Shown here: piece after piece, positions 43,483 to 58,346 of the stretch
How the letters are laid out: the number at the start of each line of letters is the position of its first letter
How positions within the stretch are numbered: the stretch's first letter is position 1
From: Roseivivax marinus
Lineage (GTDB): Bacteria; Pseudomonadota; Alphaproteobacteria; Rhodobacterales; Rhodobacteraceae
Direction: 5' to 3'
Assembly: GCF_900109705.1 (NCBI RefSeq)
Contig: NZ_FOAI01000003.1
Coordinates: 186,001-250,000 of the forward strand
Length of the DNA stretch: 64,000 bases
The notes under the pieces: model-generated
Database searches by the model: none
Told to the model about the DNA's origin: nothing
What the model saw: only the letters and a program-made list of their open reading frames with translations
Made by a program: the position numbers and the translations under genes

Positions 43483-43535
43483 GGCGCGGGCCTCGACTCG
43501 GGGGGCGGTGATGGAACCAGTCGTGGCAGAATGTT

Positions 43536-43564
43536 CATCTGTGTCAAGTTTGAGTTCACCGATG
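43536..43564. promoter_or_regulatory. Possible operator between the OYE and TetR genes
   Basis: CATCTGTG (43536-43543) and CACCGATG (43557-43564) form an inverted repeat with one mismatch and a 13-base spacer. A TTGACA hexamer on the minus strand lies at 43542-43547, which could be the -35 of the oxidoreductase gene. The evidence is weak. Confidence 0.3.
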
Positions 43565-43610
43565 TATATTCCCGTTGCGGAGGCGCCCGGGCTGGCCTAG
43601 GAAACGCCGC

Positions 43611-44255
43611 ATGAGCACATCCGGAACAGACGGCCCCTCCGGCCCTTCCGCAGACAGCGGCTGGCGCGGATCCCGCGACGTCTGGCTCGCCGCGGCCAAG
43701 GCGGCGTTCCTCGACGGCGGCCTCGGCGCGGTGCGCATCCAGCCGCTCGCCGCGGGGCTCGGGTTGTCGCGCACGTCGTTCTACTGGTTCTTCCGCGACC
43801 GCGCGGCGATTCTCGACGCCCTGCTGGACCTTTGGGATGTGCAGAACACCGACGCCCTCGTGGCGGCCACGGAAGCCTATGCCGAGACGGTGTCGGAGGC
43901 GGTGCTCAACGTGATCGCCCTCTTCATCGACGAGGCCCGCTTCGAGCCGCGCTTCGAGCTGGCAGTGCGTGGCTGGGCACACGGCTCGGACGCGGTGATG
44001 ACGCGGGTGAACCGGGCGGACGCTCGGCGACTCGACGCGATCAGGGCGATGTTCGAGCGGTTCGGCATTCCGTCCGACGAGGCAGACGTGCGGGCGCGCA
44101 CCGTCTACCTCGTGCAGATCGGCTACATCTCGATGCAGGTGCGCGAGACGCGCGAGGAACGCCTGACCCGCGTGGCCGACTACGTGAAGACATTTGCCGG
44201 CGCGGCGCCCACTCCGGCCGAGATGGCGCGGTTCCGCGCGGGGCTCGGTCTCTAA
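43611..44255 (+). CDS. TetR-family transcriptional regulator
   Basis: A 214-residue regulator starting MSTSGTDGPSGPS, a disordered N-terminus, then the HTH: VWLAAAKAAFLDGGLGAVRI and LGLSRTSFYWFFRDRAAILD. The C-terminal domain contains a WAHGSDAVMTRVNRADARRL block that I associate with regulators of catabolic oxidoreductases in this order. It is divergent from the OYE-type gene, which it most likely controls. The rhodanese gene follows after about 110 bases. Confidence 0.88.
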   Translation: MSTSGTDGPSGPSADSGWRGSRDVWLAAAKAAFLDGGLGAVRIQPLAAGLGLSRTSFYWFFRDRAAILDALLDLWDVQNTDALVAATEAYAETVSEAVLNVIALFIDEARFEPRFELAVRGWAHGSDAVMTRVNRADARRLDAIRAMFERFGIPSDEADVRARTVYLVQIGYISMQVRETREERLTRVADYVKTFAGAAPTPAEMARFRAGLGL

Positions 44256-44367
44256 CACGGTCCGCGGGGCCTCCGCTGGTGCTGGCCTTGTGCCGCGCGT
44301 GGTGCGAGGGTCGGGACGACGCAGAACCACGGGGACTACGACAATGACCATCAGGGAAGGCGACCGC

Positions 44368-44757
44368 ATGACCAGCCGCGAGTTGGTCGCGGCAGCCGAG
44401 GACGAGATCGAGACCGTTCCTGCGGCGGAGGCCGTGGCGCTGACCAGCGCCGAGGACGTGGTCTTCGTGGACCTGCGCGACCGCCGCGAGCTGGAGCGCG
44501 AGGGCCGGGTGCCCGGCGCGTTCCACTGCCCGCGCGGGATGCTGGAGTTCTGGATCGACCCCGATAGCCCCTATCACCGTGACATCTTCGACCGCGACGC
44601 GCGCTTCGTCTTCTACTGCGCGTCGGGCTGGCGCTCGGCATTGGCGACGCAGGTGGCGGGGCGGATGGGATTGGCCCGCGCGGCGCATGTTGGCGGCGGC
44701 TTCACCGCATGGCGCGAGGCCGGCGGACCGGTCGAGCCGGTCGCACCCAAGGGCTAG
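44368..44757 (+). CDS. Single-domain rhodanese
   Basis: A 129-residue sulfurtransferase-like protein. The domain begins with VVFVDLRDRRELEREGRVPG and the catalytic Cys84 is in FYCASGWRSALA; the end GGGFTAWREAGGPVE is typical. The CASGWRS loop is of the single-domain GlpE/PspE class. I prefer ATG 44368 (MTSRELVAAAEDEIETV) with AGGGAAGG upstream; ATG 44344 is possible. It stands at the left border of the sulfur island, so moving persulfide or thiosulfate sulfur is plausible. Confidence 0.87.
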   Translation: MTSRELVAAAEDEIETVPAAEAVALTSAEDVVFVDLRDRRELEREGRVPGAFHCPRGMLEFWIDPDSPYHRDIFDRDARFVFYCASGWRSALATQVAGRMGLARAAHVGGGFTAWREAGGPVEPVAPKG

Positions 44758-44797
44758 GGCGCCGGACGCGGACGGTCGTCGGTGCGCGCGGTCGTGG

Positions 44798-45484
44798 TCA
44801 GGCTTCGCCTGCCGAGCGGGCCAGCCGCGACAGGCCCTCGCGTCCGGTCAGGCGGACTTCACCGCGGGCCTGCTCGACCCAGCCGCGGCGGTGGAACTCG
44901 GCCAGCGTGCGCGAGATCACCTCGCGCGCCGTGCCAAGCTCGTTGGCCAGCGTCTGGTGGGTGGCGTGCACCACATCGCCGTCGGCCGACAGCTGCAGCA
45001 GCTTGGCCGCCAGCCGCACGTCCATGCGCTGGAAGACGATGTCGTCGATCAGGGTGAAAAGATCTGTGATCCGCCGGGAGTAGGCGGTGAAAATGAACTG
45101 TCGGAAAACGGTGGAACGTGCGGCCATGTCGTCGAAGGTGGCGCGGGGGATGGCGACCGCGGTCACGTCCGTCTCGGCGATACCGTCGGCCGCGTAGTCC
45201 TCGAACGCCAGCATGCAGGCTGTTGTCAGCACGCAGCTTTCGCCCGCGTGAACGCGATAGAGAAAGACCTCGCGGCCGGTCTCGGACTTCTGCTGCACGC
45301 GGACCGTGCCGTCGAGCAGCAGCAGAAGGTTGTCCGGCGTCTGGCCCGGTGCGAAGATCTGGGTGCCTGCGGGCACCTCGACCACCGAGCTTCCGGCCAC
45401 GAGGTCCGCGCGCAGGTCGGAGGGCAGTTGGCTCAGACCCGGAAACCTGTCGATCCAGCTCGTCGTGGCGGGGGCCGTGGTCAT
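44798..45484 (-). CDS. Crp/Fnr-family regulator
   Basis: A 228-residue regulator with an N-terminal cyclic-nucleotide-binding-type barrel (VPAGTQIFAPGQTPDNLLLLL, trimmed) and a C-terminal winged HTH whose recognition helix is ELGTAREVISRTLAEF. It lacks the N-terminal cysteine cluster of Fnr, so it is not an iron-sulfur oxygen sensor of that type. The ligand is unknown. It is oriented like the adjacent soxT-soxR-soxS group and lies 94 bases beyond the transporter gene, so it may take part in sulfur control. Confidence 0.88.
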   Translation of the reverse strand: MTTAPATTSWIDRFPGLSQLPSDLRADLVAGSSVVEVPAGTQIFAPGQTPDNLLLLLDGTVRVQQKSETGREVFLYRVHAGESCVLTTACMLAFEDYAADGIAETDVTAVAIPRATFDDMAARSTVFRQFIFTAYSRRITDLFTLIDDIVFQRMDVRLAAKLLQLSADGDVVHATHQTLANELGTAREVISRTLAEFHRRGWVEQARGEVRLTGREGLSRLARSAGEA

Positions 45485-45578
45485 GGGCGTCTGGTCTCCG
45501 TCGTTGGTTCGGGACAGGGATACAATCCGCGTGCGGCGCTGGCAAAGGGGCAGGGGCCGCCGAACCCGGGGCCCGGTG

Positions 45579-46622
45579 TCACACCCGGAAGAACGCCGCG
45601 CGGCCCTCGATCATCAGCTTGAGGCCGATCGCGCCTCCGATCCAGATGCCGCCCAACGCGACCGGGGCGGTGTAGGCAAGCAGCGCGAAGGCCGAGAGCC
45701 CCTGGCCGATGCTGCACCCCACCGCCAGCACCGCGCCCACGCCCATCAGTGCGGCGCCCCCGATCTGGCGGCGCAGCTCGCGGTGGTCGTCGCACGCCTC
45801 CCAGCGGAAGACGCCGCGCACGCGGCTGCCGATCCATGCGCCGCCGAGAACGCCGAAGACGGACCCCACGCCGAAGCCCGGGGGCACGCCGCTGGACAGC
45901 ATGAGCCAGACCATCGTTTCGCCCAAGGGCGCCGAGAACGTGTGCGAGCGCACCGGCACCGCGTCGAAACTTGTCGCCGCGAGGTAGGTCGTGCCGACGA
46001 ACCCCGAGACGATGGCGAAGGCGACGGGCAGACCCCAGAGCGCACGTCGGGACGCGCCGCGCAGCGCCACGAGCAGAAGCAGGCCGCCCGACACGATCCC
46101 GACGACGGACGCGGGGATCGACAGGAGAGCGCCGATGCCGTGGGCGATGCCCTGCGGGCTGTCGGCGAGCACCGGCGGGAACAGTGCCACGCGCAGCGGA
46201 CTGAGCGGGCCGGACAGGGTGGCCAGCGCCGCAAGGCCCATCACGATGACGATCACGAAGGAGCGCATTTCACCGCCGCCGAGCCGCGCCAGCGCGCCGA
46301 GGCCGCAGTTGCCGGCCAACGCCATGCCGATCCCGAAGGTCAGTCCGCCGATGGCTGCCGCGGCGAGGTCGGCGCGTTGCGCGAGGTAGACCGACGCGGT
46401 CGGGTCGGCCCAGCCCAGGGCCGCGGCGAGGTGCAACGCGAGGATCGAGGCGCCCAGCGCCACGCCCCACATCCGCAGGCGCGTCGCGTCTCCGGCCAGG
46501 TGAAAATCCTCGAGCGCGCCCAGCGTGCAGAAGCGGCCGAGCCGCGCCGAGAGGCCCAGAAGCAGGCCACCGAATGCGCCGACGACGACGCTCGCGGCGT
46601 CGCCCGACATCAGGTCCAGCAT
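45579..46622 (-). CDS. soxT: YeeE/YedE (TsuA-like) thiosulfate/sulfur transporter, SoxT-like
   Basis: A 347-residue inner-membrane protein with many helices and the conserved cysteine/glycine blocks of the sulf_transp family: LGRFCTLGALEDFHLAGD, ALAGNCGLGALARLGGGEM and LAVGCSIGQGLSAFALL. In TsuA these cysteines guide thiosulfate through the membrane. Homologues next to sox genes are called SoxT. The start at 46622 has GGGAGGAG upstream. It lies 58 bases after soxR in the unit soxS-soxR-soxT, so its expression should follow the persulfide-sensing repressor. Confidence 0.88.
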   Translation of the reverse strand: MLDLMSGDAASVVVGAFGGLLLGLSARLGRFCTLGALEDFHLAGDATRLRMWGVALGASILALHLAAALGWADPTASVYLAQRADLAAAAIGGLTFGIGMALAGNCGLGALARLGGGEMRSFVIVIVMGLAALATLSGPLSPLRVALFPPVLADSPQGIAHGIGALLSIPASVVGIVSGGLLLLVALRGASRRALWGLPVAFAIVSGFVGTTYLAATSFDAVPVRSHTFSAPLGETMVWLMLSSGVPPGFGVGSVFGVLGGAWIGSRVRGVFRWEACDDHRELRRQIGGAALMGVGAVLAVGCSIGQGLSAFALLAYTAPVALGGIWIGGAIGLKLMIEGRAAFFRV

Positions 46623-46680
46623 GTCTCCTCCCTGCCCGGACGGGGCGCGCCGCACGCGGTCGGCGCCTCCGGGCGCGGTC

Positions 46681-47076
46681 TCAGCCGTCGTCGTCCTTGC
46701 AGAACAGCTCGTAGACCGTCTCCATCATTCGGCGGGGTTTGTCGTCGGTCAAGCTGTAGTAGATCGTCTTGCCCTCGCGCCGGGGCTGGACCAGCCCCTC
46801 GAGACGCAGCCGGGTGAGCTGCTGCGATACCGCCGCCTGCCGCGCCGACAGGATGCGCTCGAGCTCGCCCACGGACTTCTCGCCCGTGGCGAGGTGGCAC
46901 AGGATCATCAGACGGCCCTCGTGACCGAGCGTCTTGAGGAAGTCGGCGGCCTCGCGGGCCTGCGTCATCATCCGCTCGAGGTCGGCGTCGGGCATGTCCG
47001 CATCGAAGCGGGGCAGGGGGCTGGTCGAGGCGATGGGTCCGTTCTCCGCGCTCTCGGGGACGTTCGGCGTGTTCAT
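46681..47076 (-). CDS. soxR: SoxR, ArsR-family persulfide-type repressor
   Basis: A 131-residue winged-helix repressor unrelated to the redox sensor SoxR of E. coli. The HTH is SARQAAVSQQLTRLRLEG, with a beta-wing RREGKTIYYSLTD. Two cysteines, Cys60 (RLMILCHLATGE) and Cys126 (VYELFCKDDDG), are 66 residues apart, the same spacing as the two sensing cysteines of SqrR (41 and 107), so a per- or polysulfide bridge is likely to relieve repression. It overlaps soxS by ATGA. Three ATTCACAGA sites in the island are its probable operators. Confidence 0.92.
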   Translation of the reverse strand: MNTPNVPESAENGPIASTSPLPRFDADMPDADLERMMTQAREAADFLKTLGHEGRLMILCHLATGEKSVGELERILSARQAAVSQQLTRLRLEGLVQPRREGKTIYYSLTDDKPRRMMETVYELFCKDDDG

Positions 47077-47492
47077 GGATCGGCGTCCACGGTCGCGGGA
47101 CGGCCGGCATCCTGTTGGTCTGGACCCCAGAGGTCGGCCTCTGTCAACATGCGTTCGACCATCGGCCAGAAGAAATCCTCTCCGGGATAGCCTTCGATGC
47201 GCGCGTGTTCAGTCCCGTCCTCCACGAGGATGAAGGTGGGCGTCAGCCGTGGAGGCGAGACGAGGTCTAGGTCATCGGGGATGGGCCGGGTGATGTCGAC
47301 CCGCCGGATCGGCGCAGCACGCCCGGCGTCGGTCTTGGGGTAGGCGTCGCCGACCTCGGCCTCCCAGCGGGCGCACCACATGCAGCCCTCTTCCTCCACC
47401 ATCACGAGTCGCACTTCGGCCGCCGCGTCGCGCGGCAGGCAGGCGGCCCCGAGTACGAGGCTTGCGATGATGGCAAAGGTGGTGCGTCCCAA
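47073..47492 (-). CDS. soxS: SoxS, periplasmic thioredoxin-like protein
   Basis: About 139 residues with a signal peptide (TTFAIIASLVLGAACLPRDA) and a thioredoxin-like domain with the redox pair in EEEGCMWCARWEAEVG. In Paracoccus, SoxS keeps SoxY active by reducing wrong disulfides. The start is unclear: no ATG lies near the signal peptide, and I use TTG 47492, which has no good ribosome-binding site. The open frame runs much further upstream but through the divergent promoter. Its stop overlaps the soxR start, and it is divergent from soxV. Confidence 0.85.
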   Translation of the reverse strand: MGRTTFAIIASLVLGAACLPRDAAAEVRLVMVEEEGCMWCARWEAEVGDAYPKTDAGRAAPIRRVDITRPIPDDLDLVSPPRLTPTFILVEDGTEHARIEGYPGEDFFWPMVERMLTEADLWGPDQQDAGRPATVDADP

Positions 47493-47521
47493 AAGTCGAA
47501 GCGTCCGATTGACCCAATCTA

Positions 47522-47545
47522 ATTCACAGATAATAATGTTTTGAT
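47522..47545. promoter_or_regulatory. SoxR-type operator, soxS/soxV intergenic
   Basis: ATTCACAGA (47522-47530) is followed directly by TAATAATG, which holds a -10-like hexamer for soxV, and then TTTTGAT. The same nine bases recur at 48921 and 51249. In related bacteria SoxR binds the soxS-soxV gap. Assignment to SoxR rests on position and repetition. Confidence 0.65.
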
Positions 47546-47574
47546 ATCGACGCGGCAAGGGGAGGAGTCGCGAA

Positions 47575-48318
47575 TTGTTCGAAGTCACGCTCGGCGGGGC
47601 CGCGCTGGCCGGCCTGCTGTCGTTCCTGTCGCCCTGCATACTGCCTATTGTGCCGTTCTACATCGGCTACCTCGCGGGCGCCGGGGCCGAACGCGCCGAA
47701 AGCGGCGCGTCGTCGGGGACAGCCGCGGCCGCGCGCCCGGCCTTCCTGCCGGCGATCCTGTTCTCGCTCGGGATCATCGTGGTGTTCGTCGCGCTCGGCG
47801 CCTCGGCCTCGTTCGCGGGCCAGTTCGTGCGGCAGTGGTTCGACGTGCTGCGCTGGATCGCGGCGGCGCTTATCATCGTGATGGGGCTGCACTTCCTGGG
47901 CGTGCTTCGGATCGGCGTGCTCTACCGCCAGTTCCGGGCCGAACCCGGCGACGTCACCGCGCTGTCGCTGCCCATGGCCTTCGTGCTGGGACTGGCCTTC
48001 GCCTTTGGCTGGACGCCGTGCGTCGGCCCCGTGCTGGCAGCGATCCTCTTCACCGCCGCGGGCACCGAGACGGCCGGACAGGGGGCGTGGCTTCTCCTTG
48101 CCTACGGCATCGGAATGACCGCGCCCTTCGTCCTGGCCGCCGCCTTCGTCGGGCCGTTCCAGCGGTTCATGGCACGCTTCCGGCGGCATCTCGGCACGGT
48201 CGAGAAGGTCACCGGCGGGATGCTTGTTGTCTTCGGCCTGCTCATCGCCACCAATTCAGTCAACCTCATCGCCCAGTGGATGCTCGAGACCTTCCCGGTG
48301 TTCTCGCGCTACGGCTGA
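47575..48318 (+). CDS. soxV: SoxV, CcdA-type transmembrane thiol-disulfide transporter
   Basis: A 247-residue inner-membrane protein with six helices. The redox cysteines are Cys21 in FLSPCILPIVPFYIGYL and Cys149 in FAFGWTPCVGPVL, the CcdA/DsbD pattern. It takes electrons from cytosolic thioredoxin to periplasmic SoxW (and probably SoxS). It starts at TTG 47575 behind a very good GGGGAGGAG. It is divergent from soxS with an operator in between and is followed by soxW after 22 bases. Confidence 0.94.
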   Translation: MFEVTLGGAALAGLLSFLSPCILPIVPFYIGYLAGAGAERAESGASSGTAAAARPAFLPAILFSLGIIVVFVALGASASFAGQFVRQWFDVLRWIAAALIIVMGLHFLGVLRIGVLYRQFRAEPGDVTALSLPMAFVLGLAFAFGWTPCVGPVLAAILFTAAGTETAGQGAWLLLAYGIGMTAPFVLAAAFVGPFQRFMARFRRHLGTVEKVTGGMLVVFGLLIATNSVNLIAQWMLETFPVFSRYG

Positions 48319-48340
48319 CCTCACCAGAAGGAGCCTTCCG

Positions 48341-48916
48341 ATGATCCGACGCCTGTTCCTGAGTCTCGCCGCGGCCGCCGCGCTCACGGTCCCCGCTTTT
48401 GCCGAGGTGCCCATGGGCGACGACGGCCTGCACAAACCCGACTGGCTGCGGGAGACCTTCCTCGACCTGCGCGAGGACCTCGCGGAGGCGAATGCCGAGG
48501 GCAAGCGCCTGTTGATCCTCGTCGAGCAGCGCGGCTGTTCCTACTGCCGCAAGATGCACGAAGAGGTGTTCACAGCGCCGAACGTCGAACAGGCCATTCG
48601 CGAGGATTTCTTCGTGCTCCAGATCAACATGTTCGGCGACATCGAGGTGACCGATTTCGACGGTGAGACCATGCCCGAGAAGGAAATATCGAAGCGCTGG
48701 GGTCTGCTCTTCACGCCGACGATGATGTTCCTGCCCGAGGAGGTCGCCGAGGATGCCACCGCCGCCGAGGCCGCCGTCGCCACCATGCCCGGCGCCTTCA
48801 GCAAGAACACCACGCACAACCTGATGACGTTCGTGACCGACCACGTCTACGAGACCGACGAGCCGTTCCAGAAGTATCACGCGCGCAAGCTCGAGGAGGC
48901 GGGAGTCAACGAATAA
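48341..48916 (+). CDS. soxW: SoxW, periplasmic thioredoxin
   Basis: A 191-residue exported thioredoxin with a signal peptide (FLSLAAAAALTVPAFA) and the active-site pair Cys66/Cys69 in VEQRGCSYCRKMHEEVF, followed by the cis-Pro region WGLLFTPTMMFLPEE. It receives electrons from SoxV. In Paracoccus, SoxW is not essential for thiosulfate oxidation itself but supports reactivation. AAGGAG precedes ATG 48341. Confidence 0.93.
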   Translation: MIRRLFLSLAAAAALTVPAFAEVPMGDDGLHKPDWLRETFLDLREDLAEANAEGKRLLILVEQRGCSYCRKMHEEVFTAPNVEQAIREDFFVLQINMFGDIEVTDFDGETMPEKEISKRWGLLFTPTMMFLPEEVAEDATAAEAAVATMPGAFSKNTTHNLMTFVTDHVYETDEPFQKYHARKLEEAGVNE

Positions 48917-48920
48917 ATAT

Positions 48921-48941
48921 ATTCACAGACGTGATATTGAT
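48921..48941. promoter_or_regulatory. SoxR-type operator, soxW/soxX intergenic
   Basis: ATTCACAGA (48921-48929) followed by CGTGATATTGAT, five bases after the soxW stop and about 70 bases before soxX. It matches the known location of a second SoxR site (soxW-soxX) in related sox clusters. AT-rich bases TATATT precede it and may be part of the promoter. Confidence 0.65.
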
Positions 48942-49009
48942 GGTTGCCAACGCGCGAACCCCGCGTCTACGCTAGGACACAAGGGCAGGGAGGCCCGAAG
49001 GGAGGAGAC

Positions 49010-49507
49010 ATGACTCGCATTGAACGACGCGCTGTCGGCGCGGCGATCGCCGCACTCATTGCCGCCGCACCGCTGTGGGCGGCGGAGGCCGTGGCTCCGG
49101 ACGCGGTGAACTTCACTGACGTCGGCGGAATCGCGGAGTCGCTGAGCGGCACCCCCGGCGATGTCGAGAACGGCGCCGCCCTGATGAACAAGGGCGCGGG
49201 CAACTGCATCGCCTGCCACCAGGTGACCGCTCTGAACGACCTGCCGTTTCACGGCGAGGTCGGGCCGTCCCTCGACGGTGTGGGCGAGCGCTGGGACGAG
49301 GCGCAGATCCGCGGCATCGTGGCCGACGCCAAGAAAACGTTCCCGGGGACCATCATGCCGTCCTTCTACAAGACCGGCCCCTACGAGCGGCCGGGTGACG
49401 GCTACACCGGCAAGGCCGCGCAGGGCGAACTCGATCCGCTGCTCACGGCGCAGGACGTCGAGGACGTGGTGGCCTTCCTGATGACGCTCGACACCTATCC
49501 CGAATGA
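49010..49507 (+). CDS. soxX: SoxX, monoheme cytochrome c
   Basis: A 165-residue periplasmic cytochrome with signal peptide (AAIAALIAAAPLWAA). The haem site CIACH is at residues 66-70 and the distal methionine is in GTIMPSFYKTGPY. With SoxA it forms the cytochrome that oxidatively couples thiosulfate to the SoxY cysteine. ATG 49010 has GGAGGAG upstream, and it begins the operon soxXYZA. Confidence 0.96.
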   Translation: MTRIERRAVGAAIAALIAAAPLWAAEAVAPDAVNFTDVGGIAESLSGTPGDVENGAALMNKGAGNCIACHQVTALNDLPFHGEVGPSLDGVGERWDEAQIRGIVADAKKTFPGTIMPSFYKTGPYERPGDGYTGKAAQGELDPLLTAQDVEDVVAFLMTLDTYPE

Positions 49508-49530
49508 CACCCAGAGAGGAGCACGCTCCG

Positions 49531-49950
49531 ATGACTTTGTCCCGAAGAGAGACGCTGGCCCTCGGCCTCGGCGCCTTCGCCGCCAGCTTCGTTTTGCCCA
49601 AGATCGCCACCGCCGCGACCGAGGATGCCATCGCCGCGTTCACCGGTGGCGCGGAACTCGGCCAGGGCGACCTGACCCTGACGGCCCCCGAGATCGCAGA
49701 GAACGGCAACACGGTGCCGATCGAGATCGACGCCCCGGGCGCCGAGTCGGTCCTGATCCTCGCCGCCGGCAATCCCAACCCGGACGTCGCGACCTTCAAC
49801 TTCGGCCCGATGGCCGGCGCGCACACCGCGTCCACGCGGATCCGTCTTGCGGGCACGCAGGACGTGATCGCCATCGCCAAGATGTCGGACGGCTCGTTCG
49901 TCGAGGCGCGCCAGGAAGTGAAGGTCACCATCGGCGGCTGCGGCGGCTGA
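49531..49950 (+). CDS. soxY: SoxY, sulfur-carrier protein
   Basis: A 139-residue protein exported by the Tat route (SRRETLALGLGAFAASFVLP). The carrier cysteine is Cys137 in the C-terminal swinging-arm motif GGCGG (residues 135-139), to which thiosulfate and later intermediates are bound. It pairs with SoxZ encoded 22 bases downstream, which lacks its own signal and is exported with it. Confidence 0.97.
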   Translation: MTLSRRETLALGLGAFAASFVLPKIATAATEDAIAAFTGGAELGQGDLTLTAPEIAENGNTVPIEIDAPGAESVLILAAGNPNPDVATFNFGPMAGAHTASTRIRLAGTQDVIAIAKMSDGSFVEARQEVKVTIGGCGG

Positions 49951-49972
49951 TCCGGACCAGAGGAGAGAGACA

Positions 49973-50302
49973 ATGGCAGAGAATGTGAAACCCCGCGTCC
50001 GCGTCCCCTCGTCCGCCTCGGCCGGCGAAGTGGTGACGATCAAGACGCTCATCAGCCACCAGATGGAATCCGGTCAACGCAAGGATTCCGAGGGCAACAC
50101 CATCCCGCGGTCGATCATCAACCGCTTCGTGGCGGAGTTCAACGGCGAGACCGTGGTGGACGTCAAGATGGAGCCCGCCATCTCGACCAACCCGTATTTC
50201 GAGTTCCAGGCGAAGATCCCCGAGAGCGGGACCATGAGCTTCACCTGGTACGACGACGACGGCTCCGTCTACGAGGATTCGCAAGAGATCACCGTGGGCT
50301 GA
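49973..50302 (+). CDS. soxZ: SoxZ, partner of SoxY
   Basis: A 109-residue immunoglobulin-like protein, MAENVKPRVRVPSSASAG at the start, VVTIKTLISHQMESG next, and YFEFQAKIPESGTMSFTWYD near the end, all typical. It has no signal peptide and rides out with SoxY. SoxYZ is the carrier on which all sox reactions take place. AGGAGAGAG precedes the ATG. Confidence 0.97.
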   Translation: MAENVKPRVRVPSSASAGEVVTIKTLISHQMESGQRKDSEGNTIPRSIINRFVAEFNGETVVDVKMEPAISTNPYFEFQAKIPESGTMSFTWYDDDGSVYEDSQEITVG

Positions 50303-50336
50303 GCCCGTTCGACGGCAGCAAAGGGAGGAGCTACCG

Positions 50337-51197
50337 ATGTCGAAGTCCGTATGGCTGGGCGGGTGCGCCGCCGCAGCACTGATGTTCTGTGCGCCGGCGA
50401 TCGTGACCGCGCAGGACGATGCCGCCGACCGAGAGCTCGTCATCAACGGCGAAATCGAGATCGTCACCGAGGCGGATGCGCCCGCGCATCTCGAGAACAT
50501 GTCGACGATCCGGTCCGGCTGGACCTTCCGGTCGCCCGAGACGCAGACCATGCAGATGGACGACTTCGACAATCCCGGCACTCTCGGGGTCGAAGCGGCG
50601 CGCGAGGCGTTTTCGGCCGATCTCGGCAACGGCGAGAGCTGCGCGGGCTGCCACGAGAGCCCCGAGGAACTCGCGGGCGTGCGCGCGGTCTACCCCAAGT
50701 GGGACGCGGACGCCGGGGCGGTCCAGACCATCGAGATGCAGATCAACGAGTGCATCACCGAACGGGCGGGCGCCGAGGCCTGGGGCTACGACAGCGGCGA
50801 GATGATCGACATGTCCGCGCTCATGTCCTTCGTGTCGCGCGGCGAGGCGGTGAACGTCGCCATCGACGGGCCGGCTGCCGAGACGTGGGAGAAGGGCAAG
50901 GAGATCTACTACACCCGGTATGGTCAGTTGGAGCTTTCGTGCGCGAACTGCCACGAGGACAACTACGACAACATGATCCGGGCCGACCACCTGAGCCAGG
51001 GCCAGATCAACGGCTTCCCGACCTATCGCCTGAAGAATGCCAAGCTCAACTCGGTGCAGGGCCGCTTCAAGGGCTGCGTGCGCGACACCCGGGCCGAGAC
51101 GTTCTCTCCGGGCTCGCCCGAGTTCGTGGCGCTGGAGCTTTACGTAGCGTCGCGCGGCAACGGTCTGTCTGTCGAAGGCCCCGCCGTTCGCAACTGA
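50337..51197 (+). CDS. soxA: SoxA, diheme cytochrome c
   Basis: A 286-residue periplasmic cytochrome with signal peptide (CAAAALMFCAPAIVTA). Two haem sites are visible, CAGCH at residues 102-106 and CANCH at 202-206, and the special cysteine ligand of the catalytic haem is Cys247 in FKGCVRDTRAE. This is the diheme type, as in Rhodovulum. With SoxX it couples thiosulfate to SoxYZ. A terminator hairpin directly follows, so soxA ends the soxXYZA unit. Confidence 0.97.
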   Translation: MSKSVWLGGCAAAALMFCAPAIVTAQDDAADRELVINGEIEIVTEADAPAHLENMSTIRSGWTFRSPETQTMQMDDFDNPGTLGVEAAREAFSADLGNGESCAGCHESPEELAGVRAVYPKWDADAGAVQTIEMQINECITERAGAEAWGYDSGEMIDMSALMSFVSRGEAVNVAIDGPAAETWEKGKEIYYTRYGQLELSCANCHEDNYDNMIRADHLSQGQINGFPTYRLKNAKLNSVQGRFKGCVRDTRAETFSPGSPEFVALELYVASRGNGLSVEGPAVRN

Positions 51198-51201
51198 ACC
51201 G

Positions 51202-51236
51202 AAAAGAGGCCTCCGTGCGGTGCGCGGGGGCCTTTT
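51202..51236 (+). terminator. Terminator between soxA and soxB
   Basis: AAAAGAGGCC (51202-51211) pairs with GGCCTTTT (51229-51236) apart from one bulge; the 3' arm ends in TTTT. It lies five bases after the soxA stop, ahead of a third SoxR-type motif. Confidence 0.65.
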
Positions 51237-51248
51237 CGTCCGAAACCC

Positions 51249-51270
51249 ATTCACAGATATGATTGTGATA
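51249..51270. promoter_or_regulatory. Third SoxR-type operator and -10 element at the soxB start
   Basis: ATTCACAGA (51249-51257) runs into TATGAT (51258-51263), a 5/6 match to the -10 hexamer. TCACA (51251-51255) and TGTGA (51264-51268) form a perfect inverted repeat with an eight-base spacer. The element ends only five bases before the soxB ATG and there is no ribosome-binding site, so a transcript from here would be almost leaderless. Confidence 0.6.
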
Positions 51271-51275
51271 CACCG

Positions 51276-52970
51276 ATGATCGCACGCCGCCACTTCCTCC
51301 AGGCCGGACTTGCCGCCTCGGCGCTCGTAGGCGCCTCGGGCTTCGGCAACTGGGCGCGGCTCGCCGCGCAGCAGAGCCTGACGCAGGACGACCTGATCGG
51401 CGGGCCGGGCAGCGGCACCGTCTCGCTCATCCACATCACCGACATCCACGCGCAGACACAGCCGATCTATTTCCGTGAGCCCGAGATCAACCTCGGCGTC
51501 GGCGCGGTGACCGGTCTTCCGCCCCACATCACCGGCGCGGCCTTCCGCAAGGCGTTCGGGATCAAGGACGGCAGCCCCCGCGACTATGCGCTGACCAGCG
51601 AGGACTTCGTGTCGCTCGCCCGGGCGTACGGCCGGATGGGCGGCCTCGACCGCATCGCCACCGTGGTCAAGGCGATCAAGGCCGACCGCCCCGACGCGCT
51701 GGTGCTGGACGGCGGCGACACCTGGCAGGGTTCGCTGCCCGCGCTCCGGACCGAGGGTGCCGACATGGTGCGCCTGTTCAACGCGCTCGGCACCGAGGCG
51801 ATGACCTCGCACTGGGAATTCACGCTGGGCTCCGAGCGGGTGCGCGAGATCGTCGAGGGAGAGCTCGACCCAGCCTTCCTCGGCGCCAACATCTTCGACG
51901 CGGAGTGGGACGAGCCGGCCTTCGAACCGATGAAGATGTTCGAGCGCGGCGGCGCCAGGATCGCCGTGATCGGGCAGGCCTTTCCCTACATGCCCATCGC
52001 CAACCCCGGCTGGATGTTCCCCGAGCTGTCCTTCGGCATCCGGCAGGAGCGCATGGCCGAGGTCGTGCAATCCGCCCGGGATCAGGGCGCGGAGGCGGTG
52101 GTCCTGCTGTCCCACAACGGCTTCGACGTGGACCGCAAACTTGCCGAGGACATTCCCGGCATCGACGTGATCCTGACCGGACACACCCACGACGCGATCC
52201 CCGAGCCGGTGATGGTCGGCAAGACCGCCCTGATCGCCTCGGGCAGCCACGGCAAGTTCGTCAGCCGGGTCGATCTTGACGTGGACGCGAGTGGTGTGAA
52301 GGGGATCGAGCACCGGCTGATCCCGATCTTCTCGGACGTGATCGAACCCGACGCCGACATGGCCGCGCTGGTCAATGAGACCCGCGCCCCCTTCGCCGAC
52401 GAGATGTCCGAGGTGCTGGGCACCACCGACTCGCTTCTGTTCCGTAGGGGCAACTTCAACGGCACCTGGGATGACCTGATCTGCAACGCGCTCATCGCGG
52501 AGCGCGAGGCCGACATCGCGCTGTCGCCGGGCTTTCGCTGGGGCGCCTCGATGATCCCCGGCCAGGAGATCACCCGCGAGGACGTCTTCAACGTCACCGC
52601 CATGAGCTACCCGGAGGCCTACCGTACGGAGATGACCGGAGAATTCCTCCACACGGTCATGGAGGACGTGGCCGACAACCTCTTCAATCCCGACCCCTAC
52701 TATCAGCAGGGCGGCGACATGGTCCGCGTGGGCGGTATGGGCTACCGCATCGACGTGGCCAAGGCTCAGGGCGAGCGGATCACCGAGATGACCCTGCTCA
52801 GCACGGGCGAAGCCATCGATCCGTCGAAGACTTACGTCGTCGCCGGCTGGGCCAGCGTCAACGAGGGCACCGAGGGGCCGCCGATCTGGGAGGTGGTCGA
52901 GAACCACATCCGTCGGCAGGGCACGGTCAGCATCGACCCCAACCAGAGTGTGGACGTGGTGGCGGGATGA
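51276..52970 (+). CDS. soxB: SoxB, dimanganese sulfate thiohydrolase
   Basis: A 564-residue periplasmic enzyme that hydrolyses the terminal sulfonate from SoxYZ as sulfate. It has a Tat signal (ARRHFLQAGLAASALVG) and metallophosphatase motifs: HITDIHAQTQP near residue 60, LDGGDTWQGS near 148, MTSHWEFTLG near 175, VLLSHNGFDVD near 275 and LTGHTHD near 300. The C-terminal 5'-nucleotidase domain starts near residue 370. The start lacks a Shine-Dalgarno; the alternative is translation of a near-leaderless mRNA. It overlaps the following DsrE-like gene by ATGA. Confidence 0.97.
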   Translation: MIARRHFLQAGLAASALVGASGFGNWARLAAQQSLTQDDLIGGPGSGTVSLIHITDIHAQTQPIYFREPEINLGVGAVTGLPPHITGAAFRKAFGIKDGSPRDYALTSEDFVSLARAYGRMGGLDRIATVVKAIKADRPDALVLDGGDTWQGSLPALRTEGADMVRLFNALGTEAMTSHWEFTLGSERVREIVEGELDPAFLGANIFDAEWDEPAFEPMKMFERGGARIAVIGQAFPYMPIANPGWMFPELSFGIRQERMAEVVQSARDQGAEAVVLLSHNGFDVDRKLAEDIPGIDVILTGHTHDAIPEPVMVGKTALIASGSHGKFVSRVDLDVDASGVKGIEHRLIPIFSDVIEPDADMAALVNETRAPFADEMSEVLGTTDSLLFRRGNFNGTWDDLICNALIAEREADIALSPGFRWGASMIPGQEITREDVFNVTAMSYPEAYRTEMTGEFLHTVMEDVADNLFNPDPYYQQGGDMVRVGGMGYRIDVAKAQGERITEMTLLSTGEAIDPSKTYVVAGWASVNEGTEGPPIWEVVENHIRRQGTVSIDPNQSVDVVAG

Positions 52971-53404
52971 AACAGGCACGGAGACTTTTCGCGGCATGCG
53001 CTCTCGTGGCGATGGGCACGGTGGCGTCGGCCGAGGGCGAGACCCACAAGGTCGCGGTCCACGTCGACGCGAGCGATCTGCACGTGATGAACATGGCGCT
53101 GAACAACGTGGCCAACCTGCAAAGCTACTACGCCGAGCAGGGTGACGAGGTGACCGTCGAGGTCGTCACCTACGGCCCCGGTCTCACGATGCTGACCGCC
53201 GGCAGCCCGGTCGCCGCCCGCATCTCGACCATGTCGCTGGAGGCCGGCGACCTGACCTTCTCGGCATGCGCGAACACGATGGCCGGAATGGAGAAGAAGA
53301 CCGGCCAGAAGCCCCAGCTGCTCGACGAGGCGCAAATCGTGCCCTCGGGCGTGGTGCGGCTGATCGAACTTCAGGAAGACGGCTACGCCTACGTGCGGCC
53401 GTGA
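52967..53404 (+). CDS. Secreted DsrE-family protein embedded in the sox operon
   Basis: A 145-residue protein with signal peptide (LFAACALVAMGTVASA) and a DsrE/DsrF-like domain: KVAVHVDASDLHVMNMALNN, LQSYYAEQGDEVTVEVVTYG and a single conserved cysteine, Cys101, in TFSACANTMAGM, the position of the sulfur-carrying cysteine in DsrE/TusD proteins. Those known carriers act in the cytosol; this one is predicted periplasmic. It overlaps soxB by four bases and is 17 bases before soxC, so it is made with the core Sox enzymes. The textbook Paracoccus cluster has no such gene at this place. A sulfur-transfer or SoxYZ-related role is inferred. Confidence 0.87.
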   Translation: MKQARRLFAACALVAMGTVASAEGETHKVAVHVDASDLHVMNMALNNVANLQSYYAEQGDEVTVEVVTYGPGLTMLTAGSPVAARISTMSLEAGDLTFSACANTMAGMEKKTGQKPQLLDEAQIVPSGVVRLIELQEDGYAYVRP

Positions 53405-53420
53405 GACGGAGGACCCGAGG

Positions 53421-54677
53421 ATGACCGATACGTCCCGACGCAATTTCCTGCGCGGCGCGGCGCTGGCCGGGGCCGGTGCGGCCGTGGGCGGGCGCGCGAT
53501 GGCGCAGACGCCCGATCCCGCGATCACCGAGCTGCCTCCCTGGCAGCAATATCTGGGCGAAGGCGTCGATGCCGCGCCCTACGGGATGCCGTCGCAGTAC
53601 GAGGCCCACGTGGTGCGCCGCAACGTGCCGTGGCTGACCGCCGATGCGACCTCTTCGGTGAACTTCACGCCGCTGCACGAACTGGACGGGATCATCACAC
53701 CGAACGGCCTGTGCTTCGAGCGCCACCACGGCGGCGTCGCCGAAGTCGATCCGGCCGAGTACCGGCTGATGATCAACGGCCTTGTCGATACGCCGTTGGT
53801 CTTCGATCTGCAGGATCTCATGCGCTTCCCGCGTGAGAACCGGATCCACTTCCTCGAATGCGCGGCGAACAGCGGCATGGAGTGGCGCGGCGCGCAGCTC
53901 AACGGCTGCCAGTTCACTCACGGCATGATCCACAACGTCATGTATACCGGCGTGCCACTGCGCCTGCTGCTCGAGGAAGCGGGCGTGAAGACCGCGGGCA
54001 CCTGGCTTCTGGCCGAGGGCGCGGACGCCTCCGCCATGACCCGCTCGATCCCGATGGAGAAGGCGCTCGACGATTGTCTCGTGGCGTTCAAGATGAACGG
54101 CGAGATGCTGCGCCCCGAGCAGGGTTACCCGGTGCGCCTCGTGGTGCCGGGCTGGGAAGGCAACATGTGGGTGAAGTGGCTGCGCCGGATCGAGGTCGGC
54201 GATCAGCCGTGGCATCACCGAGAGGAGACGTCGAAATACACCGACCTCTTCCCCGACGGGCAGGCCCGCCGCTTCACTTGGGAGATGGACGCCAAGTCCG
54301 TCATCACCAATCCCAGCCCGCAGGCGCCGATCACCCACGGGCCGGGTCGCATGGTGCTGTCGGGCGTGGCGTGGTCGGGCCGGGGCACCATCCCGCGCGT
54401 GGACGTGACACTCGACGGCGGCAACAGCTGGGTGCAGGCACGCATGTCGGGCCCGAGCTTCGACAAGTCGATGCACCGCTTCTACCACGAGTTCGACTGG
54501 GACGGCCGGCCGCTGCTGTTGCAGTCCCGCGCGCACGACTCCACGGGCTACGTGCAGCCAACCAAGGACATGCTGCGCGAGATCCGGGGCGAGAACTCGA
54601 TCTACCACAACAACGGCATCCAGACCTGGGCCGTCAACGAACAGGGGGTCGCCGAGAATGTCGAAGTCTCCTCTTAA
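53421..54677 (+). CDS. soxC: SoxC, molybdenum subunit of sulfane dehydrogenase
   Basis: A 418-residue sulfite-oxidase-family protein with a Tat signal (SRRNFLRGAALAGAGAAVGG). The molybdenum ligand is Cys147 in HFLECAANSGMEWRG; LVVPGWEGNMWVKWLRRIE is the typical dimer/cofactor block. With SoxD it oxidises the sulfane sulfur left on SoxYZ, giving six electrons without free sulfur globules. Its 3' end overlaps soxD by 20 bases. Confidence 0.97.
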   Translation: MTDTSRRNFLRGAALAGAGAAVGGRAMAQTPDPAITELPPWQQYLGEGVDAAPYGMPSQYEAHVVRRNVPWLTADATSSVNFTPLHELDGIITPNGLCFERHHGGVAEVDPAEYRLMINGLVDTPLVFDLQDLMRFPRENRIHFLECAANSGMEWRGAQLNGCQFTHGMIHNVMYTGVPLRLLLEEAGVKTAGTWLLAEGADASAMTRSIPMEKALDDCLVAFKMNGEMLRPEQGYPVRLVVPGWEGNMWVKWLRRIEVGDQPWHHREETSKYTDLFPDGQARRFTWEMDAKSVITNPSPQAPITHGPGRMVLSGVAWSGRGTIPRVDVTLDGGNSWVQARMSGPSFDKSMHRFYHEFDWDGRPLLLQSRAHDSTGYVQPTKDMLREIRGENSIYHNNGIQTWAVNEQGVAENVEVSS

Positions 54678-56076
54678 TCCGCTCGTGCCAACACTTGGCG
54701 GGATCGCGGCGACACTGGCCGGTGCCTACATCCTCGCCGACCAGTTCGTCGTGGACCTGCCCGCCCCCGCCCGCGGTGGGTTCGAGATCGTCCCGGCCGC
54801 GAACGCGCAGGAGGCCGCGACTCCGAACGGGGCCGCCGATGCGGCGCGGATGGACGACGCGGCCGCCACGTCGCGCGCCGACGCCGGTGACGCCGCACCC
54901 GAGGCCGAGATGCACACGGCGTCCGCCGAGGCCGACGGGTCCGCGGCCGCGGCATCCTCGCACGAGGGAGGATACGGCCTCGGCCGTCCGGCCCTCGACG
55001 AGGAAATCGCGGCCTGGGACATCGATATCCGGCCCGACGGGCAGGGCCTGCCCCGGGGCGAGGGCGACGTCTGGACCGGCGAGGAACTTTTCGTCGCGCA
55101 GTGCGCCATGTGTCACGGCGATTTCGGCGAGGGGGCGGGCCGCTGGCCGCAGCTCGCGCTCGGCACGGGAACGCTGACGAGCAATGACCCGGTGAAGACC
55201 GTGGGCTCGTACTGGCCCTATCTTTCGACGGTGTGGGACTACGTGCACCGCGCCATGCCCTTCGGCAATGCGCAGTCGCTGTCGGATGACGAGGTCTACG
55301 CGATCACCGCCTACATCCTTTACCTCAACGAGATCGTGGAGGATGATTTCGTCCTGTCTTCCGACAGCTTCGCCGAGGTCGAGATGCCGAATGCCGGGGC
55401 CTTCTACATGGACGATCGCGCCGAGACCGAGCTGCCCGAGTTCTCTCGCGAGGTGTGCATGGAGAACTGCAAGGAGGACGTGAAGATCACCATGCGGGCC
55501 CGCGTTCTCGACGTGACTCCCGAGGGCGGCGACGATGCCGAAAACGCCCCGAACGAGGCTGCGGCGCCGGAAGAGGCGATGGACGGCGGCGACCACGCTG
55601 CGTCGGACGAGGCCTCTGCGAACGACGCGGCCCCGGCGGAGGAGCAACAGACCGAGACCGCGCAGACTGCCTCCGGCGGCGCCGCGCCCGAAAGCGCTTC
55701 GACTTCCGAGACCGAGGATGCGCCGGAAGACATCCGGATCGTCGCCGCCGATCCCGCCCTGATCGAGGACGGCGCCAAGGTGTTCCGCAAGTGCCAGGCC
55801 TGCCACCAGGTCGGCGCAGATGCCTCGAACCGCGTGGGCCCGCAGCTCAACGGTCTGCTCGGGCGGACAGTGGGCAGCGCGGAGGGCTTCAGCTATTCCA
55901 ACACCTTCGAGAAGGCCCACGACGCGGGCGAGGTCTGGACGGCGGAGCATCTTGCCGAGTTCCTCGCCGACCCGCGCGGCACCTACACTGGCACCAAGAT
56001 GTCCTTTGCCGGTCTCAAGGACGACGCGGACATCGAGGCGGTCACCGCCTACATCGAAGCCGAGGGCGCCGAGTGA
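54658..56076 (+). CDS. soxD: SoxD, diheme cytochrome c of sulfane dehydrogenase
   Basis: A 472-residue periplasmic cytochrome. After an N-terminal hydrophobic segment (residues about 10-35) and a disordered Ala/Glu stretch, the first haem site is CAMCH (149-153). A long acidic Ala/Glu/Asp-rich linker (about 285-355) leads to the second haem domain with CQACH (379-383) and a distal methionine in GTKMSFAGL. It passes electrons from SoxC to the respiratory chain. Its stop overlaps the GTG start of soxE. Confidence 0.95.
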   Translation: MSKSPLNPLVPTLGGIAATLAGAYILADQFVVDLPAPARGGFEIVPAANAQEAATPNGAADAARMDDAAATSRADAGDAAPEAEMHTASAEADGSAAAASSHEGGYGLGRPALDEEIAAWDIDIRPDGQGLPRGEGDVWTGEELFVAQCAMCHGDFGEGAGRWPQLALGTGTLTSNDPVKTVGSYWPYLSTVWDYVHRAMPFGNAQSLSDDEVYAITAYILYLNEIVEDDFVLSSDSFAEVEMPNAGAFYMDDRAETELPEFSREVCMENCKEDVKITMRARVLDVTPEGGDDAENAPNEAAAPEEAMDGGDHAASDEASANDAAPAEEQQTETAQTASGGAAPESASTSETEDAPEDIRIVAADPALIEDGAKVFRKCQACHQVGADASNRVGPQLNGLLGRTVGSAEGFSYSNTFEKAHDAGEVWTAEHLAEFLADPRGTYTGTKMSFAGLKDDADIEAVTAYIEAEGAE

Positions 56077-56441
56077 CGCGCGCCGGGCTCCTCGCTCTCG
56101 CGGCGCTGGCTATGGCGGCCGGTGGTGCGGGAGCGCGGGCCGAGACGTCCCATGCAGAGGCGGCCATGACGCCCGGCGGCGACGAGATCGCCGGCATCCT
56201 CGCCCTCGAACCCGACCTTGGCTACGGCGCCTACCTCGCGTCGGACTGCACAAGCTGTCACGCCGATGCGGCCGCCGAGGGGATTCCTCGCATCCGTGAT
56301 CTGCCGACCGGTACCATCGTGGCGGCTCTGGTGGACTACCGGCGCGGCGCACGGCAGCATCAGGTCATGGAGACGATCGCGCGCAGGCTCGGCGATGAGG
56401 AGATCGCCGCGCTGGCCGCATTTTTGGGCGAGGCCGACTGA
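56073..56441 (+). CDS. soxE: SoxE-like monoheme cytochrome c
   Basis: A 122-residue periplasmic cytochrome with signal peptide (RAGLLALAALAMAAGGAGA) and haem site CTSCH (59-63), followed by PTGTIVAALVDYRRGARQHQ, a block seen in cytochromes that partner flavocytochrome c. It starts at GTG 56073 inside the soxD stop (GTGA). SoxE of Paracoccus is a larger diheme protein; this one is half that length. With the flavoprotein encoded 28 bases downstream it would form an FccAB-like sulfide dehydrogenase. Confidence 0.85.
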   Translation: MTRAGLLALAALAMAAGGAGARAETSHAEAAMTPGGDEIAGILALEPDLGYGAYLASDCTSCHADAAAEGIPRIRDLPTGTIVAALVDYRRGARQHQVMETIARRLGDEEIAALAAFLGEAD

Positions 56442-56468
56442 CGCCTCGCGCTTCAGGGAGGGACGGCC

Positions 56469-57731
56469 ATGACTTTCGACAGACGGACGGTGATCGGCGG
56501 GCTCGCCGCCGGCGCGGCGGCGCTTTCCGCGCCGATGGTGATGGCGCAGGGCGTCCCGCGCGTCGTGGTGGTCGGCGGCGGCGCCGGGGGCGCCACGGCG
56601 GCGCGCTACATCGCCAAGGGATCGCAGGGCGCGGTGAGCGTCACGCTGATCGAGCCGACGCGCCGCTACTACACCTGCTTCTTCTCGAACCTCTATCTCG
56701 GCGGTCTGCGCGAGATGGACAGCTTGGGCCACGATTACGGCACGCTGGCCGCCGAGTATGGCATCAACGTCGTGCACGACTGGGCCGTGGGCGTCGACCG
56801 CGACGCCAGAACCGTCTCGCTCGCCTCGGGCGGATCGATCCCCTACGACAAGCTGATCCTCTCGCCCGGCATCGACTTCAAGGAGGGTGCGGTTCCCGGC
56901 TGGGACGTGACCGCGCAGACCGCCATGCCGCACGCCTACAAGGGCGGCACGCAGGCGCAGCTTCTGAAGGCGCAGGTGATGGCGATGCCCGAGGGCGGCA
57001 CCTTCGCGATCGTCACGCCGCCCAACCCCTATCGCTGTCCGCCGGGCCCTTACGAACGGGTCTCGATGGTCGCCCACACGCTGAGCGAGGTGAACCCCTC
57101 GGCCAAGATCCTCATCGTCGATCCCAAGGAGGGCTACTCCAAGCAGGCCCTGTTCGAGGAGGGCTGGCAGGCGCACTACGGCGGCATGATCGAGCGGATC
57201 GGTCCGGATTTCGGGGGCACCAACGTGTCGGTCAATCCCGCAGAGATGACCATCGACATCGACGGTCAGGTCGAGAGCGTGGACGTCTGCAACGTGATCC
57301 CGGCGCAGCAGGCCGGGCATATCGTGCACGCCGCCGGCCTGACCGATGGCGACTGGGCCCCGGTGAACGCGGACGACCTCTCTTCGAAGACGGATCCAGA
57401 CGTGCACATCCTCGGCGACTCCGCGGCGCAAGGCGACATGCCGAAATCTGGCTTCGCCGCCAACAGCCAGGCCAAGGTCTGCGCTAACGCCGTGCTCGGC
57501 GCTCTCACCGACGCCCGTGTCTTCCCGGCGCGGTTCTCGAACACCTGCTGGTCGCTCATCGCGCCCGAGGACGGCGTGAAGGTCGGCGCAACCTACGAGG
57601 CGACCGAGGAAAAGATCGCCTCCATCGACAGCTTCATCAGCCAGCCCGGGGAGGACGCAGAGACCCGCGCGCAGACCTACCAGGAAAGCCTTGGCTGGTA
57701 TGCCGCGATCACGGCGGACATGTTCGGCTGA
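56469..57731 (+). CDS. soxF: SoxF, flavoprotein of flavocytochrome c sulfide dehydrogenase type
   Basis: A 420-residue periplasmic FAD protein with a Tat signal (DRRTVIGGLAAGAAALSAP), dinucleotide motif VVVVGGGAGGATAARYI, and two cysteines at the expected redox places: YYTCFFSNLYLGG near residue 72 and NPYRCPPGPYERV near 192. FccB/SoxF oxidise sulfide to sulfane sulfur with transfer to the cytochrome subunit. It has GGGAGGGA upstream and is the last of the sox genes on this strand, though a DUF302 gene follows. Confidence 0.95.
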   Translation: MTFDRRTVIGGLAAGAAALSAPMVMAQGVPRVVVVGGGAGGATAARYIAKGSQGAVSVTLIEPTRRYYTCFFSNLYLGGLREMDSLGHDYGTLAAEYGINVVHDWAVGVDRDARTVSLASGGSIPYDKLILSPGIDFKEGAVPGWDVTAQTAMPHAYKGGTQAQLLKAQVMAMPEGGTFAIVTPPNPYRCPPGPYERVSMVAHTLSEVNPSAKILIVDPKEGYSKQALFEEGWQAHYGGMIERIGPDFGGTNVSVNPAEMTIDIDGQVESVDVCNVIPAQQAGHIVHAAGLTDGDWAPVNADDLSSKTDPDVHILGDSAAQGDMPKSGFAANSQAKVCANAVLGALTDARVFPARFSNTCWSLIAPEDGVKVGATYEATEEKIASIDSFISQPGEDAETRAQTYQESLGWYAAITADMFG

Positions 57732-57905
57732 GGCGTGGTCCCGCGGCGCCGGATCGCGCCGTCCGCGCCCGCGGGCCAGCCACATGTCCGAACCGAACGG
57801 CCCGTCTGCCTCCGGCGGGGATATCGAGGCCAATAAGAAGGGGAGCGGCCGCGCCCTTGCCGGCGGTCGGGATCCCGGGAGCCAACAGCAGAAAGGAAAT
57901 ACGCC

Positions 57906-58346
57906 ATGTCCGTTCGTATCGCAGCCGCCGCGACCTGCCTCGCGCTGGGGCTGGCCGCGCCTCTCGCCGCGCAGGACGCGATCACATACGACTTCGAGGG
58001 CTCGTTCGACGACGCGACCTTCGCCGTCGAGAACGCCATCGTGAACCAGGGTCTCGTGATCGACTCCGTCAGCCACGTGGGCGACATGCTGGCTCGCACC
58101 GGCGAAGACGTGGGCAGCGCGCAGGAGCTCTTCACCGGGGCCGACATATTCCAGTTCTGCTCGGCGGTGGTGAGCCGTGAGGTGATGGAGGCGGATCCCC
58201 TGAACGTGGTGCACTGTCCCTACAGCATCGCCGTGACCGAGCGCGACGGCGCGGTCATGATCCTGCACCGGTCCTATCCCGACGGCGCCATGCAGCAGGT
58301 CGAGGACCTGCTGTCCACCATCGTCGCCGAGGCGGGCGGCAGCTGA
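57906..58346 (+). CDS. Secreted DUF302 family protein
   Basis: A 146-residue protein with signal peptide (ATCLALGLAAPLAAQ) and the DUF302 fold: DFEGSFDDATFAVENAIVNQ, then FQFCSAVVSREVMEADPLNV and CPYSIAVTE. The family is widespread near redox and sulfur genes, but no function is established. It lies 174 bases after soxF on the same strand, so it may be co-transcribed or have its own promoter. AGAAAGGAA precedes the ATG. Two cysteines (in FQFCSAV and VHCPYS) could form a disulfide. Confidence 0.85.
   Translation: MSVRIAAAATCLALGLAAPLAAQDAITYDFEGSFDDATFAVENAIVNQGLVIDSVSHVGDMLARTGEDVGSAQELFTGADIFQFCSAVVSREVMEADPLNVVHCPYSIAVTERDGAVMILHRSYPDGAMQQVEDLLSTIVAEAGGS

Follow-up and report, generated by a model that had tools for sequence, protein, structure and literature searches.

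The sox cluster in the 64,000-nt stretch of Roseivivax marinus DNA analysed here (the window) very probably contains, as judged from sequence comparison, a SoxR operator between soxA and soxB. In this cluster and in most of the relatives examined, a SoxR-type site lies at a near-fixed distance past the soxA terminator, which suggests that the distal half of the cluster, from soxB onward, probably has a SoxR-controlled gate of its own. A functional site would mean that one sulfur sensor governs SoxXYZA and, separately, the thiosulfohydrolase SoxB together with the sulfite dehydrogenase SoxCD. Whatever goes beyond the comparison of sequences in the following is what we infer from it.

The sequence ATTCACAGA occurs three times on the forward strand of the window (Table 1), compared to 0.10 copies expected from 100 shuffles, confirming the initial annotation, which had placed it at soxS/soxV, at soxW/soxX and again between soxA and soxB; six copies are present in the whole genome. 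A longer pattern, ATTCACANATNNGATTGTG, searched with up to three mismatches, yields five matches in the 4.01-Mb genome, three of which are the sox sites and two of which carry three mismatches each. The third site falls in the gap between the soxA stop codon (51195-51197) and the soxB ATG (51276). The cognate repressor is encoded in the same window by soxR, the product of which finds its best PDB matches in 6o8k-6o8o (also 13ct; E 7.3e-39) with both cysteines aligned, and scores 104 bits with the NCBIfam BigR model, below the cut-off of 155. We take entries 6o8k-6o8o to be SqrR of Rhodobacter capsulatus. A gene for a YeeE/YedE-type sulfur transporter (PF04143; 45579-46655) adjoins soxR in the place of soxT. 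For Hyphomicrobium, the signal to SoxR is reported to come via SoxT1B (PMC11582611).

Table 1. Features of the sox region, in window coordinates.
Feature	Positions	Strand	Details
soxR	46681..47076	-	ArsR-family repressor, SqrR/BigR group; both sensor cysteines kept
SoxR-type site soxS/soxV	47522..47541	+	ATTCACAGA; motif score 13.3
SoxR-type site soxW/soxX	48921..48940	+	ATTCACAGA; motif score 7.7, slightly below the cut of 8
soxX promoter, TTGCCA-N18-TACGCT	48944..48973	+	read off the sequence; aligned family elements GTTGCGT and TACGGTA
Hairpin at soxA end	51206..51234	+	-26.5 kcal/mol; fold of 51198-51300; G/C core end 51232, T-tract 51233-51236
Probable SoxR-type operator soxA/soxB	51249..51268	+	motif score 19.9 (window among the training sites); 16 nt past the G/C stem
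TATGAT, possible -10 of the window's lineage	51258..51263	+	kept in L081, not in L082
soxB	51276..52970	+	TIGR04486 809 bits, cut-off 550; ATG without Shine-Dalgarno

The soxA/soxB site in related clusters

The initial annotation had proposed that soxA-soxB gaps be compared across relatives, and two sets of loci provided that comparison. The training set consisted of the best 80 soxB loci of a longer list, 25 loci from further relatives and the window (106 in total), and the gap could be extracted in 103 of them. A 20-position motif, ATTCAnAnATGCGnATnTGT, was trained on these gaps; it is built on the ATTC-N8-GAAT core of the type recognized by SqrR (PMC9774250). The gaps split into 71 of 103 with scores of at least 11.6 and 32 of 103 with scores of at most 4.0, and merging two duplicate pairs (L031/L086 with the operator, L049/L088 without) places the operator in 70 of 101. 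The record titled Oceanobacillus, in the latter pair, has a contig (528389 bases) and a soxA-soxB gap equal to those of a genome of the window's family, and the title is probably wrong. Only 5 of 515 shuffled training gaps scored above 8. Because the motif had been trained on the first gaps, we also scored a separate hold-out set of 100 loci, each of another genus code of the family, from which 8 loci identical to training loci were removed; the remaining 92 are thus filtered by identity, not by kinship. Scores exceeded 8 in 71 of these 92 gaps and 11.5 in 67. An exact ATTC-N8-G[AC]AT core is present in 57 of the 71 training sites and in 61 of 71 hold-out sites, the latter taken from the first pass. 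Six loci (L132, L153, L154, L194, L201 and L206; scores 8.8-11.9) are weak positives that may be chance matches.

The neighbourhood of the gaps points the same way. Upstream coverage exceeded 4.5 kb for 95 gaps; within these, soxR adjoins all 65 operator-bearing clusters, compared to 22 of the 30 operator-free ones. The soxW/soxX site is more widespread than the soxA/soxB site: a score above 8 is found in 86 of 93 training clusters, namely in 64 of 65 with the soxA/soxB site and 22 of 28 without, the single miss in the former group being the window itself at 7.7. The third SoxR-type operator that the initial annotation had placed behind a terminator hairpin is therefore supported, being common to most related clusters and, where enough upstream DNA is covered, always accompanied by soxR. 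When mapped on a tree of 101 SoxA rows, operator presence takes 12 changes, compared to 27.4 with shuffled labels; by this measure, presence is clustered, yet with several gains or losses. Both Paracoccus pantotrophus and P. denitrificans lack a soxA/soxB site (best scores -10.2 and -9.0, respectively), unlike the soxW/soxX site, which both keep (14.7 and 10.9), so that work on Paracoccus would miss any such separate control of soxB. The hairpin tail holds 4 T in 8 positions in P. pantotrophus, with no run of three, and 0 in P. denitrificans; given the former count, we do not regard the T-tract as missing from the genus as a whole. In L014 and L019, the gap sites read ATTAG for ATTCA, with the right half kept and TTGTCA at -12 to -7, perhaps representing a transition from operator to plain promoter.

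The aligned sites also indicate which repeat is likely to be read by the repressor. The initial annotation had singled out a perfect TCACA-N8-TGTGA repeat, which is indeed present (51251-51268; sole copy in the window, 0.01 expected), with its end 7 bases before the ATG rather than the 5 given there. As the SoxR dyad, this repeat, centred at 11.5 of the site, was rejected because the family sites are most symmetric about 8.5: among 66 distinct sites, the complementary fraction is 0.530 at 8.5, 0.471 at 12.5 and 0.420 at 11.5, and centre 8.5 corresponds to ATTC-N8-GAAT. The probable operator of the window has an exact left half; its right half reads GATT, a single mismatch where 99% of the 137 sites carry A, and the right half-site is deviant in the window's lineage (GATT, GATT, CAAT). 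A palindrome, ATGC/GCAT, centred at 12.5 overlaps many of the soxA/soxB operators of relatives and is absent from the window; it might serve a second mode of binding or a different protein.

Spacing between terminator and operator

The hairpin at the end of soxA in the window is followed by TTTTCGTC only, a short T-tract of TTTT, and a terminator scan listed nothing at this position. Among relatives, the distance from the end of the G/C stem to the operator is 15-19 nt in 63 of the 71 training loci and 68 of the 71 hold-out loci (hold-out mode 17, SD 1.3), a range that includes the window. This spacing was measured in two ways for the training loci, each giving 63 of 71, and by eye six of the eight outliers of one measure lie at 17-19 nt; a looser hairpin measure, in which stems run into the T-tract, gave 7-19 nt and was superseded by the G/C-stem measures. 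The distance from operator to start codon is loose, ranging from 16 to 128 nt with an SD of 12 in the training and 14.2 in the hold-out set, and positions -12 to -6 before the operator are weakly conserved in the 137 aligned sites.

In the training set, the stem is followed by a T-tract (at least 4 T in 8) in 62 of 71 loci with the operator and in 11 of 31 without it; the corresponding hold-out counts are 67 of 71 and 4 of 21. Counted by independent pairs, only four of which are well supported, the association between operator and T-tract is not significant. Kinship among lineages limits the weight of this association, and less so that of the constant spacing.

Promoter elements and the soxB start

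At soxX, the profile of relatives contains GTTGCGT at positions 22-28 and TACGGTA at 47-53, directly downstream of the operator, a conserved promoter pair that differs from the standard -35/-10. The 137 aligned soxA/soxB sites, for which alignment on the operator is the part relied on, reveal no conserved -35 or -10, just the hairpin, the T-tract and the operator with an A-rich left edge. A promoter scan found none in 51150-51350 of the window, and promoter scores at the soxA/soxB loci (n=71) resemble those of shuffles, with a mean z of 0.30 for a generic model and -0.20 for a soxX-trained model, and with 8% and 4% of loci, respectively, above z 1.64. The generic sigma-70 model is weak, the soxX promoters being missed as well, and the absent -35/-10 lowers the claim of a standard soxB promoter, not of every promoter. 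Rfam gave no match within 44000-58000 of the window. The hexamer TATGAT, which agrees with the -10 consensus at five of six positions, was rejected as a general -10 because it is absent from the close relative L082, which reads TAGCAA there, and most of the family has a G/C-rich TGCG at this place.

The initial annotation had described soxB as lacking a Shine-Dalgarno sequence, and this holds: the anti-Shine-Dalgarno duplex of -5.1 kcal/mol equals background (59% of 2000 random stretches from 42001-58000 are weaker), compared to -6.4 to -12.6 for 11 other forward genes from soxV to soxF. Its near-leaderless soxB promoter is weakly supported. The 27 nt from the first base of the operator to the ATG are kept in the two closest relatives, L081 and L082 (SoxB identity 90 and 88%), but L082 does not keep TATGAT and carries GGTGA 4 nt before the soxB ATG. 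The same 27-nt spacing occurs in two other genera (L009 and L115), and more distant soxB loci of the window's own genus code have 67 nt (L098) and 48 nt (L100); elsewhere, the soxB start is mostly 30-50 nt downstream of the operator. An SD-like 4-mer precedes soxB in 51 of the 71 operator-bearing loci and is absent in the window and L081. Median duplex energies are weaker in operator-bearing (-5.4) than in operator-free loci (-7.4), with p 3e-5 when kinship is ignored.

In L062 and L066, the ATG occupies operator positions 17-19 and the sole SD-like element, AGGA, lies inside the operator at positions 5-8, so that a message using that element cannot start inside the operator. The layout of L193 is the same; these three loci may belong to a single clade, and their arrangement could instead reflect leaderless starts. 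At the other end of soxB in the window, a DsrE/DsrF-like ORF (PF02635; 52967-53404) is placed between soxB and soxC with a 4-nt overlap with soxB; in Ruegeria locus L111, that interval lacks such a gene.

Mode of action and relation to known systems

How SoxR would act at this position is more finely balanced. Our leading reading, a gate at the soxA terminator that operates alone or with a weak promoter, falls in our estimate a little short of an even chance, and a promoter hidden beneath the operator has much the same likelihood. In the former case, SoxR would occupy the soxA/soxB site when no sulfur substrate is available, and polymerase arriving from soxX would be held with the 3' end of its transcript at the U-tract, whereby a leaky terminator would become tight. 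On taking up sulfane sulfur, SoxR would come off its operators, and some of the polymerases would then read through into soxB-F; a weak promoter under the same operator may contribute. On DNA bound by EcoRI E111Q, the polymerase active site is reported to stall 12-13 nt before the protein's site (PMC3913778), a distance at which a stall here would fall in the U-tract, with the 3' end in the window near 51236-51237, and natural roadblocks are reported to include ArsR (PMC10310618). Such a gate would explain the phasing, the missing promoter elements and the Shine-Dalgarno sequences. The short T-tract of the window and the deviant right half-sites in its lineage are points against it. A further point against it is that intergenic repressor sites usually mark promoters.

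To the promoter readings of the site, taken together, we assign an even chance. In the simpler of these, soxB-F would be transcribed from a degenerate promoter of their own inside or just before the operator, where SoxR blocks initiation, and the soxA terminator would be real; the T-tract would be part of the promoter (a poor -35 or a UP-like element), such that its spacing to the operator would be fixed, and most relatives would have a normal leader. The general rule for operators is in favour of this arrangement, as are the co-occurrence of terminator and operator and the operator-to-start distance of most loci, which suits a normal leader; taken singly, we regard it as somewhat unlikely. 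However, a conserved -35 or -10 is missing from the aligned sites, promoter scores hardly rise above shuffles (insofar as the weak generic model can tell), the G/C-rich centre TGCG[CA]AT is unlike a -10, and L062 and L066 have their Shine-Dalgarno element within the operator. The near-leaderless start of the initial annotation, confined to the window's lineage, would use TATGAT as the -10 and begin transcription a few bases before the ATG under SoxR control. The close fit of TATGAT to the consensus, the missing Shine-Dalgarno in the window and L081 and the identical operator-to-ATG spacing in the window, L081 and L082 are consistent with such a start, but L082 does not keep TATGAT and has GGTGA, no better -35 than TCGTCC lies in range, and the promoter scan is empty. 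We consider it the less probable of the two, and unlikely. That the site is a functionless relic or a chance palindrome is very improbable: the mismatched right half-site of the window would suit this explanation, whereas position, phasing and the link to soxR recur in two sets of loci.

Returning to the terminator gate, a broader reading can be put forward, which we hold to be somewhat less likely than not. A persulfide-sensing repressor of the ArsR family may serve as an intrinsic-terminator switch, with SoxR ~17 nt past the stem holding RNA polymerase in the U-tract, such that a single sulfur signal would allow initiation at soxX as well as read-through into soxB-F. The terminator and operator would then form a module that is kept in most of the sampled related sox clusters and absent in the two Paracoccus species looked at. 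Their near-constant spacing makes the pair a simple example, open to testing, of a repressor that might work via termination.

In the mostly open-access literature surveyed, we recognised nothing that describes a SoxR site in the soxA-soxB gap and, by title and start of abstract, nothing on the soxB start site in Rhodobacterales. SoxR sites at soxS/soxV and soxW/soxX have been mapped in P. pantotrophus and Pseudaminobacter salicylatoxidans, as related by citing papers (PMC5748708, PMC10451225). The soxA/soxB site belongs to the same repressor group and has the same ATTC-type core, but unlike the mapped operators it lies behind a terminator at a near-fixed distance, has no visible promoter and has a G/C-rich centre. 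The core, which most of the soxA/soxB sites have exact or with GCAT, is likewise that of the SqrR/YgaV sites; however, the ygaV site is described at a promoter, whereas none is visible at soxA/soxB and the right half in the window is GATT.

A parallel in arrangement is YtgR of Chlamydia, which is reported to repress an internal promoter and also to end upstream transcripts (PMC6504234). As in the trpR-trpB gap, the putative repressor site considered here separates two genes of the same cluster and may be tied to the ending of the upstream transcript. YtgR differs in being of another repressor family and in having a reported internal promoter, and a phased hairpin with a U-tract goes unmentioned in the portions of that account available to us. 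ArsR, PurR and C.Kpn2I are cited as DNA-bound regulators that halt elongating polymerase (PMC10310618, PMC6237814). The C.Kpn2I roadblock involves no terminator, a word that is absent from its report (PMC6237814), whereas the soxA/soxB site is coupled to one.
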